A stretch of DNA of 7,910 nucleotides from Nitrospinae bacterium RIFCSPLOWO2_12_FULL_45_22. Lineage in GTDB: Bacteria; 2-12-FULL-45-22. The notes beneath the pieces are model-generated. The model did no database searches and was not told the origin of the DNA. It worked only from the letters and a program-made list of their open reading frames with translations. This document shows, in pieces, positions 611 through 7,853 of the stretch. The stretch lies in contig MHDQ01000218.1 in NCBI GenBank assembly GCA_001803565.1, positions 1-7,910 on the forward strand, given 5' to 3'. Each line of letters opens with the position of its first letter. Within the stretch, counting starts at the first letter, position 1. Both the position numbers and the translations under genes were made by a program.

Positions 611-673
611 AGTAAACAGTAAGCCGTGAGCAGTAAGGACTAACGGCTCACTCCTCATTGCTCACGCACTCAC
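611..673. repeat. Nine-unit degenerate heptad array, palindromic
   Basis: The stretch divides into nine consecutive 7-base units. The first four carry the core GTAA or GTGA (such as AGTAAGC, CGTGAGC, AGTAAGG), and the last four carry the complementary-sense core TCA (such as GCTCACT, CCTCATT, GCTCACG). The array is therefore a large imperfect palindrome: 626-639 pairs with 652-665 at 12 of 14 positions. The same period and core recur at 5846-5873, 7126-7150 and 7779-7853. Confidence 0.7.
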
Positions 674-2556: not shown

Positions 2557-3318
2557 TCATTCGGTATCAACCTTACTGGGATTTGCTGTATAGGTGCTTG
2601 TAGTTATCGGGAAGGAATTACCAAACTGGCGGTTATGATTCTTTACCATGGTATCCGTTTTAGCATATTGATGGGTGAATGTTACGGTGAATTTACCTCG
2701 AACATTTTCTTTAAGAAAAGAGGCAAATTCTTCCAAATAGGGGTAATTAAGTTCAAAAATAGCATAGTTAATTCTTAACTCAGGTCGCCTTTTCCCCATT
2801 CTTGCCTTAGCTTCTTCAAGTTTCTCTATCCCATTTAGAATTTTTAAAAAAGCTCCATCAACTCCAACGATAAAATCATGAATTTTTTTAGGCCCGGTTA
2901 TCGAAACTCCAAGAGAAGACATACCAAAACGTACTATATCCTCTGCATATCTTTCTAGAAGAATTCCATTAGTAGTGTTCGAATATGTCAACCCTTTGCG
3001 ATTAATATACTCAGAAAGTTCTAAGATATTTTTGCTAAGGAACGGTTCTCCCCCTGCGAACGAAACGTACGGCTTAAAGCTACTAACTTCATCAATTACT
3101 CTTTTCCACTCCTCAATTGAAAGGGGGTCATTACTAGACGGGCCATTTAATTGCCGAACCCAGGCCAGATTTTCTAACCCCTGTCCTATATCACACATTT
3201 TACATCTTGCGTTACATCTGGGTGTAGGAACAATATTAATTGAGAGGGGCTGAACAAAACTAAACCCTTGTGTAGGAAGATGGGACAACAGAGATATTTT
3301 CTTGGAACGATAATACAA
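2557..3318 (-). pseudogene. Radical SAM protein, main part (5' and 3' ends lost)
   Basis: The frame encodes 253 residues with the radical SAM cluster motif CNARCKMC (C35, C39, C42, which hold the 4Fe-4S cluster and S-adenosylmethionine) and the SAM-binding motif GGEP at 89-92. It continues through a partial TIM-barrel to about residue 210. The only start is a TTG at 3318 without a Shine-Dalgarno and with a stop two codons upstream, and it abuts an inverted-repeat element. A plausible true N-terminus in the same frame lies beyond that element at 3574-3642. The C-terminus stops at the tip of the IS256 element, and the family is usually 300 residues or longer. No auxiliary-cluster (SPASM) cysteines remain. 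The lysine- and proline-rich opening followed by PLSINIVPTPRCN resembles radical SAM proteins found beside polysaccharide genes. The substrate is unknown. Confidence 0.75.
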
Positions 3319-3573
3319 GCCTCAGACATCTGGAAATTTGAATTCCGCCTTTTTTGCTAAAATGGCAAAAAGGCTATAAAAACAAAGGTTTACGGCCAAT
3401 TTTGAAGTGGGCATAATTCCTTGCACCTTACTTAATTTTTGTTGTAAATATCTGTAGTAATATCAATGGGTTAGAAATGCTAATCTCTCCCATCATGCAC
3501 TATGAGGTCTTAGCGGGGCAAATCCCTATGCCCAATGAGCAATTTTATGTCAAATTTTCCAGATGTCTGAGCC
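3319..3573. mobile_element. Non-autonomous inverted-repeat element (MITE-like), ~255 bp
   Basis: The left end (3319-3341) and the complement of the right end (3550-3573) share CTCAGACATCTGGAAA followed by TTTGA, with one mismatch and a 1-base gap over about 23 bases. Between them is AT-rich DNA with no coding frame. It holds two further inverted repeats: a hairpin at 3347-3374 (GCCTTTTTTGC against GCAAAAAGGC) and TGGGCATA against TATGCCCA near the two ends. Small size, terminal repeats and lack of a gene fit a miniature element mobilised in trans. The repeats differ from those of the IS256 element, so its partner transposase is not in this window. No clear target duplication is seen. Confidence 0.7.
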
Positions 3574-3642
3574 TATAAACTCTAAGCTACAGTAATATCT
3601 GGGATTAAAGATCACTCTTTTCGCCTTCTTTAATAAGTTCAT
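3574..3642 (-). pseudogene. Separated N-terminus of the radical SAM gene
   Basis: The ATG at 3642 (minus) opens a frame reading MNLLKKAKRVIFNPRYYCSL and then EFI before it enters the inverted-repeat element and stops there. A basic, amphipathic start with NPRYY is typical of the first residues of radical SAM proteins. The frame is the same as that of the main part (3642 and 3318 are 108 codons apart). An in-frame TAA lies a few codons upstream, so this is the first start available. The Shine-Dalgarno is poor, and a palindromic repeat begins 22 bases upstream, so the original leader may be lost. Confidence 0.5.
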
Positions 3643-5206: not shown

Positions 5207-6904
5207 TTACCCTGTATGGGGCGGATAGTCAGTTTTAGGATTCAATAAAGGGACCGTAATTGCCAAGTGCTGCTCTGGCTCTTTGTGAATTTTGGTCTCA
5301 TTTAGTTTTTTGAAGCGCCTCCCACAGGCTCTACAAGAAGCGACATTTTCTTTATCAAACTTAAGTTTTACTCCGCAGGTACACATCCAACCGGCCAGCC
5401 TTGCGGGATTTCCCAGAACAAGGGCATAATCGGGGATATCTCTGGTGACTACCGCCCCGGCACCGATAAAGGCATACTCTCCCACTGTAAGGCCGCAGAC
5501 AATGGTAGCATTGGCGCCAATGGTTGCCCCTCTCTTTATCAGGGTAAGTCGAAGCTCTTTCATCCTGGGAATAGCAGCCCGGGGATTGAAGACATTGGTG
5601 AAGACCATGGAAGGGCCACAGAAGACGTCATCCTCCAGGGTCACACCTTCATAGATAGAGATATTGTTCTGGATCTTGCAGCTATTGCCAACCGACACAT
5701 TGGGGCCAATAACTACATTCTGACCAATATTGCAATTGTGGCCAATCCTGGAACCCCTTAATATATGGGAAAAGTGCCAGATCCTGGTCCCAGGCCCTAT
5801 TTCTACATCTTCATCTATATAGGAAGATTCATGGATAAACACTTCGTGAGGAGTAAGGCGTGAGGCGTAAGGGGAAAAGCTTTTTACTTTTACCTCTTCA
5901 CTTTTTACTAATGAAATGGTTGCACCATTTCTATTCAGGGATTCCTGGGCGGCATGGAGAATTTGAAGGACACGAAGCCCCTCTTCACCATCCGTCTTGG
6001 GTCTAGTACCGTTCGAGATACATTCGAGGAAATGCTGACATTCGGCTTTTAAAGGTTCTTCTATTTGGATGGGCACAATCTCTGCTCCGGCCCTGGAAGC
6101 CACGGGGATACGGTTAATCCACTCGATCTTGTGGGGATAGAGAAAGAGCTTTTCTTCACTCAGATCGTCAAAGACCGCCATTTTACTGTCGCTAACCACT
6201 ACCAGCTTTTGTTCTTTGAAGGGATGGAGCCAGCTCACAAAGATATGGGCCTTAACTCCAGAGGGGAAGTCCATGGTAGTTATAGTTACATCGGGAATCT
6301 GATGCTGCAGGTAGCTGCCCCCGGTGGCATAGACAGTCTCTGGAGATTCATTCAAGAGGGAGAGAATAACAGAGATATCGTGCGGGGCAAAGCTCCAGAG
6401 GATATTCTCTTCAGCCCTGATCTTACCGATATTTAGACGATTGGAATAGATGTATTGGATCTTTTCCAACTCGCCTGCATCGATTAATTCCTTTAGTTTA
6501 TTGACTGCGGGATGGTATTGGAGTATATGGCCGACCATAAGGGTTTTGCCCTTCTGGGCAGCCACTTTTATTAAATTCTGACCCTCTTCGATATTCAAGG
6601 CTAAAGGTTTTTCTGTGAAGACATGTTTACTTGCTAGCAGGGCTTCTTTGGTCATCTGATAATGCATGGATGCGGGCGTAGATACTACAATGGCATCGAT
6701 ATTAGGATTGTCGAGTAGGGAGGAGAATGAATCTGTAAAATTAATAGCTGGATAATGCTCTCTGAAATTATCTCCAAGCTCTCTATTGATATCACAGATG
6801 GTATGGAGGGCGCCCAGGGCATAAAAATTACGCACCAGATTTTTACCCCAATACCCGGCGCCAACTACTGCTATATTTATTTGATCGTTATCTTTGCCTC
6901 GCAT
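5207..6904 (-). CDS. Fused sugar-nucleotide dehydrogenase and N-acetyltransferase (WbpB-WbpD like)
   Basis: I choose the ATG at 6904, with GGAG ten bases upstream and only nine residues before the nucleotide-binding strand; a TTG start at 6961 would add 19 residues. Numbering from 6961, residues about 28-350 are a Gfo/Idh/MocA oxidoreductase: Rossmann motif GAGYWG (34-39), EKP with catalytic-type K118, and FAPHDIS with H194. Residues about 352-372 are a linker encoded by heptad repeats. Residues 376-525 form a left-handed beta-helix of hexapeptide repeats (such as [22 protein letters not shown]) with the CGPSMVFTN motif of WbpD/WlbB acetyltransferases. A zinc ribbon with CTCG (527-530) and CRACG (543-547) follows. 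In Pseudomonas, WbpB oxidises C3 of UDP-GlcNAcA and WbpD acetylates the 3-amino group made by WbpE. Here both are one protein ahead of a 2-epimerase. WbpA and WbpE are absent from the window. Confidence 0.88.
5846..5873. repeat. Four-unit heptad repeat inside the fusion gene
   Basis: Four 7-base units follow one another on the plus strand with core GTGAGG or GTAAGG, for example GTGAGGA GTAAGGC. Read on the minus strand they are in frame and encode [11 protein letters not shown], the link between the dehydrogenase and acetyltransferase domains. Same period and core as the arrays at 611-673 and 7779-7853. Confidence 0.7.
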
Positions 6905-7075
6905 CTTATCGCTACTCCGATCTAAGATATATTTATCCCCAAATGATGCAAGCCCCTGCAAAAACCATCTTGAAGTGTCATCCTGAACCCTTCGCTTTGC
7001 TCAGGGATTCGGCTCAGAATGACGGACTAGTAAAGCGCTTTCCCATGAGTTCTGCATAAGTTGAGATTATTAACA
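6905..7075. other. Upstream region of the sugar-nucleotide operon, with dispersed repeat
   Basis: This gap between the divergent operon (minus) and the small gene pair (plus) should hold the operon promoter. I cannot point to a clear -35/-10 pair. A dispersed inverted repeat occupies 6977-7023. No gene is seen apart from the possible TTG-start extension of the fusion gene up to 6961. Confidence 0.5.
6977..7023. repeat. Dispersed inverted repeat (GTCATCCTGA / TCAGAATGAC type)
   Basis: GTCATCCTGA (6977-6986) faces TCAGAATGAC (7014-7023), and the interior carries CTTCGCTTTGCTCAGGG. This sequence type, related to the GTCATTCTGAG...GAAGAATC repeats, is scattered between genes in many bacterial genomes. 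It lies in the leader of the sugar-nucleotide operon. Confidence 0.65.
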
Positions 7076-7552: not shown

Positions 7553-7782
7553 ATAAGATAATTATCGGTTATGATAGCGATGATGATATTTTGGAAATCG
7601 TTATTGGCCCTTCAGCAAAGGAAGCAATTTCTGTGGAACAAGAAGATGAAGTATTTCTCCGGATTGATCCTGAAACCAAGGAAATTGTGGGCATGACCAT
7701 TTTGGGCTTCAAAAATTATCTCTTTGAGGGCCAAAAAAAGGGCAAGAAGTATCACGAATTCATAATGACAAGTGAATCGTGA
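7540..7782 (+). CDS. DUF2283 family protein, possible antitoxin
   Basis: The 80-residue protein shows the DUF2283 pattern: a start strand with an acidic turn (YDSDDDILEIVIG, about 10-22), a central acidic stretch (VEQEDEVFLRID), and ETKEIVGMTILGFKNYL (45-61), where family members have a D/E-x-x-x-I-V-G-x-E/T-I-L motif. The C-terminal tail is basic (GQKKGKKYHEF). It is soluble, without membrane segments. DUF2283 proteins are small, uncharacterised and frequently paired with small nuclease-like or RelE-like genes. Here the start codon lies inside the preceding gene behind a strong ribosome-binding site. The stop codon TGA (7780-7782) falls within the first unit of a heptad repeat array, so the repeat may have trimmed or set the C-terminus. 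A remnant of a paralogue lies upstream at 7076-7137. Confidence 0.8.
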   Translation: MAKINKIIIGYDSDDDILEIVIGPSAKEAISVEQEDEVFLRIDPETKEIVGMTILGFKNYLFEGQKKGKKYHEFIMTSES

Positions 7783-7853
7783 CGGGTGACAGGTAAATTG
7801 TAACTGGTTTTTTCTATTCTTACCCGTTACGAGTTACTATTTACCTGTCACTG
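7779..7853. repeat. Heptad array forming a 19-bp-stem palindrome
   Basis: Four plus-sense heptads (GTGACGG, GTGACAG, GTAAATT, GTAACTG) are followed by a 12-base T-rich spacer and five opposite-sense heptads (from CTTACCC to GTCACTG). Arms 7786-7804 and 7833-7851 are complementary at 18 of 19 positions. It lies directly behind the DUF2283 gene and could act as a transcript-end stem, but no U-run follows it. It is the most regular of the four heptad loci. Confidence 0.75.

Follow-up and report, generated by a model that had tools for sequence, protein, structure and literature searches.

An in-frame heptad palindrome in the linker of a fused dehydrogenase-acetyltransferase gene belongs to a genome-wide repeat family

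The fused gene and its linker element

The window (the whole stretch of Nitrospinae DNA analysed here, 7,910 nt) is contig C218 of a 3.67-Mb genome in 321 contigs. One open frame on its minus strand encodes a dehydrogenase joined to an acetyltransferase (Table 1), with Pfam matches to GFO_IDH_MocA, GFO_IDH_MocA_C and Hexapep. Fused homologues are up to 73% identical. Elsewhere in the window lie an apparently intact transposase ORF of the Mutator family (IS256-like; 419 aa, 1207-2466) and a 22-nt inverted repeat pair (3318-3339 and 3553-3574; 91% complementary, 213 nt apart) that adjoins a radical SAM ORF and is possibly a small insertion element.

The first-pass annotation placed four GTRAGG-type heptads at 5846-5873, in frame between the two enzyme halves. 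The sequence, the single open ORF and the Pfam borders bear this out: GFO_IDH_MocA_C stops at residue 345 and the hexapeptide/LbH matches start at about residues 372-385, which leaves the segment outside both enzyme domains. Only the extent has to be corrected, as the element runs on to 5908 and comprises nine heptads. The two arms flank a central heptad, GAAAAGC, and tandem repeat detection (TRF) called 5845-5872 with a period of 7/14. Codon 352 starts at base 5908 of the minus strand, so that the 63 nt form whole codons; the well-kept arm is read as TCC CCT TAC GCC TCA CGC CTT ACT CCT CAC GAA. In the degenerate arm, a one-base slip at the third GTRA (GAG GTA AAA) puts the TAA of the regular spacing out of frame. 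The element folds weakly (-11.9 kcal/mol, z -1.1), and its palindromic nature is therefore read from the spacing of the degenerate arm. It is a decayed palindrome. No Rfam match was found in the window.

Table 1. Coordinates of the fused gene, the heptad palindromes of the window and the in-frame copies in other genes
Feature	Contig, locus	Position	Strand	Description
Gfo/Idh/MocA dehydrogenase (WbpB/WlbA-like) + left-handed beta-helix acetyltransferase (WbpD/WlbB-like), one ORF	window	5207..6961	minus	584 codons; open frame, Pfam
In-frame heptad palindrome in the interdomain linker	window	5846..5908	minus (coding)	63 nt = nine heptads = 21 codons; residues 352-372
Well-kept arm	window	5846..5873	+	GTGAGGA GTAAGGC GTGAGGC GTAAGGG; four GTRAGGN heptads
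Degenerate opposite arm	window	5881..5908	+	TTTTTAC TTTTACC TCTTCAC TTTTTAC; minus-strand reading GTAAAAA GTGAAGA GGTAAAA GTAAAAA
Second GTRA-heptad palindrome	window	612..673	not assigned	outside recognised genes
Third heptad palindrome	window	7772..7851	not assigned	GTGACGG/GTAACTG type; overlaps last codons of DUF2283 ORF
In-frame copy	C295, L148	3992-4071		VSREPLAVSSTEPAGSSLLTAYSSPLT at residues 465-491 of 799-aa frame; Fer4_20/Pyr_redox_2 protein
In-frame copy	C274, L143	1872-1923		DHH-type phosphoesterase; ~30-aa insert
In-frame copy	C2, L093	2511-2559		Glyco_hydro_38C protein, YSSPLTPHSSPITPH; single-armed
In-frame copy	C58, L102	2506-2573		N-terminal part of thymidylate kinase frame

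In an AlphaFold2 model of the protein (22-sequence alignment, mean pLDDT 75.5), pLDDT falls below 50 over model residues 328-347, and the heptad insert occupies model residues 327-347. The insert thus coincides almost residue by residue with the low-confidence, disordered interdomain linker of the model. At 33 aa this linker is within the range of the fused homologues (15-40 aa) and is not extreme. Subtraction of the 21-aa insert leaves 12 aa, which is below the shortest homologue linker; the insertion event may have replaced linker sequence instead of purely adding to it.

A high-copy heptad family with facing arms

Pattern searches of the genome recovered three consecutive GTRAGGN heptads at 35 places and the reversed control pattern at none. 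The looser GTRANNN pattern was found 99 times with four heptads (control, 15) and 231 times with three (control, 44). The 35 to 0 and 99 to 15 ratios show that the window heptads are not a product of chance. Element counts were taken from these searches and from sequence stretches around approximately 90 sites. Of the 93 distinct elements read, 68 are two-armed, with the second arm oppositely oriented; the median total length is 62 nt. Well-kept copies form strong hairpins, such as L150 (-50.1 kcal/mol, z -11.0), and near-identical palindromes are present on separate contigs (L094, L118 and L132). The elements constitute a high-copy family of short palindromic GTRANNN-heptad repeats with facing arms across the genome. 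About 83 of 91 elements are located between ORFs, although approximately 83% of the same DNA stretches is ORF, which indicates that genes are seldom hit or that such insertions are mostly removed by selection.

Across 98 genomes searched, a four-heptad pattern gave 42 matches in this genome with no control match and was absent or rare in the others; it had no matches in the one other genome of the phylum that was searched. The homologue loci (L010-L092, 446 kb) contain two arrays only, of GATTCAC/GAATCAC type and not of GTRA-heptad type. In one of these loci, from an unrelated MAG, NNNTYAC heptads (GATTCAC repeated; L078 4803-4838) adjoin a dehydrogenase homologue. A search of the open-access literature turned up no paper that describes GTRA-heptad palindromes, although one may exist. 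Within the window, the region 540-720, which includes the second palindrome, is duplicated nearly identically at about 2420-2600 of L144 (contig C275).

Alternatively, slippage within an ordinary low-complexity linker could have built up the window array on site, with no mobile element involved. Tandem heptads are able to expand in this way, and some copies are single-armed (L093). We nevertheless consider this origin unlikely: the same degenerate heptad type recurs with two facing arms at more than 60 places, the near-identical palindromes lie on different contigs, and independent events would not yield the same motif.

Many elements are nested. In 30 of 92 cases, an outer inverted repeat from a different family encloses the GTRA-heptad element at its centre, compared with 3 of 92 when flanks were mispaired as a control. 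The outer families comprise TCAGCNG heptads, CCGCAGAG/CTCTGCGG, CAGATTT, CACTAAG and AAAGCGC, and the nested examples include L094, L101, L103, L111, L112, L119, L125, L126, L141, L200 and L204. This arrangement, which blurs the element termini, suggests either a preference for hairpin tips or palindromes that grow from their centre. A palindrome of another type, CCTGTC/GGCAGG (CCTGTCTGCGTGCAACGCACAGGCAGG), is located at 460-492 of the window; next to the heptads of the DHH-type gene in L143 there is a similar palindrome, which is also in the reading frame (CLPARQEG).

Reading direction and copies within genes

The two directions of the heptad differ in their stop codons. Three heptads span 21 nt, or seven codons, and consequently start in three different phases. 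Read as GTRANNN, every frame contains one TRA (TAA or TGA) in each set of three heptads. In the NNNTYAC reading, no stop codon arises from the fixed letters and all three frames are open. Since 7 and 3 are coprime, each frame of the NNNTYAC direction encodes the same cyclic heptapeptide, S-P-Y/H-x-S/L-x-L-T. The single-armed copy in L093 is open in all three frames.

A stop-free element is present inside five ORFs, including the window gene. The first-pass annotation had anticipated SPYASRLTP-like inserts in other genes of this genome, and four more genes contain them, with SSLLTPYSxPLTPH-like peptides. The C295 copy is a near-perfect hairpin (-43.4, z -7.4) and sits between the Fer4_20 (358-461) and Pyr_redox_2 (493-781) domains. 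The DHH-type protein of C274 is the clearest insertion case, as judged from the sequence comparison: the stretch CLPARQEG..NSSLLTPYSLPPLTLHPLP is missing from all nine homologues compared. The DHH-type assignment is our own family reading, since the protein has no Pfam match. A whole-genome peptide search recovered the C295 and C2 copies again and no further convincing gene with a heptad insert. The thymidylate kinase frame of C58 has two additional features. Its GTG start codon, upstream of the kinase domain, falls in the first heptad of the GTRA array, which may supply the start; close to the C-terminus there is another in-frame tandem repeat, EPRTKNQEQRTKNKEQRTK, built of GAACCAA-type heptads.

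All five genes read their copy in the TYAC direction, as follows from the stop pattern. The stops on GTRANNN mean that a gene can tolerate a copy only where the GTRA arm is absent, has degenerated or has slipped, and the stop-phase heptads of the in-gene copies are altered (GTTA, GTCA, GCAA or a slip). Such alterations were considered as a sign of selection after insertion, and this reading was dropped: at least one frame is open in 38 of 68 two-armed elements, nearly all of them intergenic, and GTTAG is common there. The stop pattern is a filter on which copies can be retained and not proof of change after insertion. The heptad build could itself be an adaptation of a selfish repeat, with a stop-free direction and an identical harmless peptide whatever the phase, and the family a steady source of linker peptides for the genome; this is a long shot, to which we give little weight.

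Age of the fusion and comparison with known repeats

The position of the array exactly at the domain junction raised two possibilities in the first-pass annotation: the repeat had helped join two genes, or it had invaded the linker afterwards. The homologues favour the second. Heptads are missing from the linkers of 29 fused homologues from Thermodesulfobacteriota/Myxococcota, Nitrospirota, Scalindua, Acidobacteriota, Armatimonadota, Chloroflexota, Verrucomicrobiota and Pseudomonadota; these linkers span 15-40 residues and are not conserved. A dehydrogenase-domain tree of 72 rows, whose bootstrap values had not quite stabilised, pairs the window protein with L048 at 98/92, and the group around it contains 25 fused and 4 split rows with a support of 95/90. 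L048 is a protein of a Syntrophaceae MAG that is 71% identical, fused and heptad-free, with a linker of 22 residues compared with 33 in the window. The four proteins labelled split inside this mostly fused group (L065, L067, L069 and L075) may be frameshifted assemblies or true splits; the order-of-events argument is unaffected.

With 29 heptad-free fusions and a fused, heptad-free neighbour in the tree, the fusion is older than the repeat, which would have entered an already existing linker. A same linker shared by distant fusions, together with a lack of arrays elsewhere, would have spoken against the first-pass reading; instead, the linkers are not conserved and the arrays occur genome-wide. 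That the fusion arose when a heptad array between two separate genes recombined or was read through, for which the junction position and the split neighbouring genes of other genomes could be cited, is very improbable in view of L048 and the mostly fused group around the window protein, and this origin was rejected. It is equally improbable that selection maintains the insert peptide as a functional linker, for instance to adjust length or flexibility between the enzymes: linker length does vary among the fusions and the insert is disordered in the AlphaFold2 model, but the peptide is dictated by the DNA heptads, recurs in unrelated proteins and is not conserved in other fusions.

We therefore favour, with a probability of about 0.85, the reading that the window segment is a copy of the genome-wide heptad family that entered the linker of an existing fusion and was kept as a translated flexible spacer. 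A dispersal process would copy heptad palindromes around the genome, and rare copies would end up in linkers, loops or N-termini and be kept there as disordered spacers. The window copy would have entered the linker of the already fused dehydrogenase-acetyltransferase gene and been retained because its length is a multiple of three and its frame follows the TYAC direction. Its opposite arm, which would bring the stops, is degenerate and slipped, and the frame would thus stay open. The insert is presumably translated as a flexible spacer, most likely with no function of its own. A repeat at a domain junction, then, need not be the cause of the fusion.

In-frame palindromic inserts are known mostly from Rickettsia, Wolbachia, some enterobacteria, Neisseria and one archaeon (PMC2229807; PMC2996958; PMC10969869). 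The heptad family, from a phylum with little sampling, is a further, independent case and comes with an arithmetic reason for the tolerated in-gene copies, namely the lack of a common factor between heptad and codon lengths and the one stop-free direction.

Rickettsia palindromic elements (RPEs; Ogata et al. 2000/2002, as reviewed) are dispersed palindromes located between genes and in frame inside conserved protein genes (PMC10969869; PMC2229807). They are approximately 150 bp long with a conserved peptide, and nearly half of them are in ORFs (PMC10969869). The likeness drawn to them by the first-pass annotation holds for behaviour alone. In both cases a palindromic repeat is dispersed in one genome (here with a partner arm in most elements), inserts in frame into conserved protein genes (five here, with the clear DHH-type insert) and is tolerated in unstructured segments. 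The likeness fails for size, peptide and ORF share: the present element is built of degenerate heptads and is less than half as long by its median, about 5 of about 91 copies are intragenic and in frame, and the host is not related to Rickettsia.

REP/REPIN sequences with RAYT transposases are also short dispersed palindromes (PMC3733652; PMC3116915). Among the listed heptad elements, no GTAG/CGTC-tagged hairpin was seen. The genome has five Y1_Tnp matches, and a facing heptad pair is near one of the four inspected, about the density expectation. A RAYT/REP origin was thus discarded, as Y1 transposases are present but are not associated with the heptad elements. Cyanobacterial STRRs are tandem heptanucleotide repeats with a consensus of their own. 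In the part of the Geobacter metallireducens account available to us, multicopy elements of four or five tandem heptanucleotides are described, some classes of which are paired on opposite strands and one of which also occurs within genes; these resemble the present family but have the consensus GGACCGG or MTYCTGA, and that part describes no translated linkers (PMC2700814).

Intragenic MITE fusions are known in enterobacteria and Neisseria for ERIC, RU-2 and the 107-bp Correia element; in the 107- and 155-bp Correia forms, stop-free versions enter ORFs and stop-rich versions remain intergenic (PMC2229807). The heptad family shares this division, with stop-free versions tolerated in ORFs and stop-rich versions kept between genes. 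These MITEs are approximately 100-200 bp long and have no heptad structure; they carry terminal inverted repeats and often target duplications, neither of which was seen for the heptad elements. In-frame insertion is therefore already a known behaviour of RPEs and intragenic MITEs; what is new is a short, heptad-built and mostly intergenic element that does the same.
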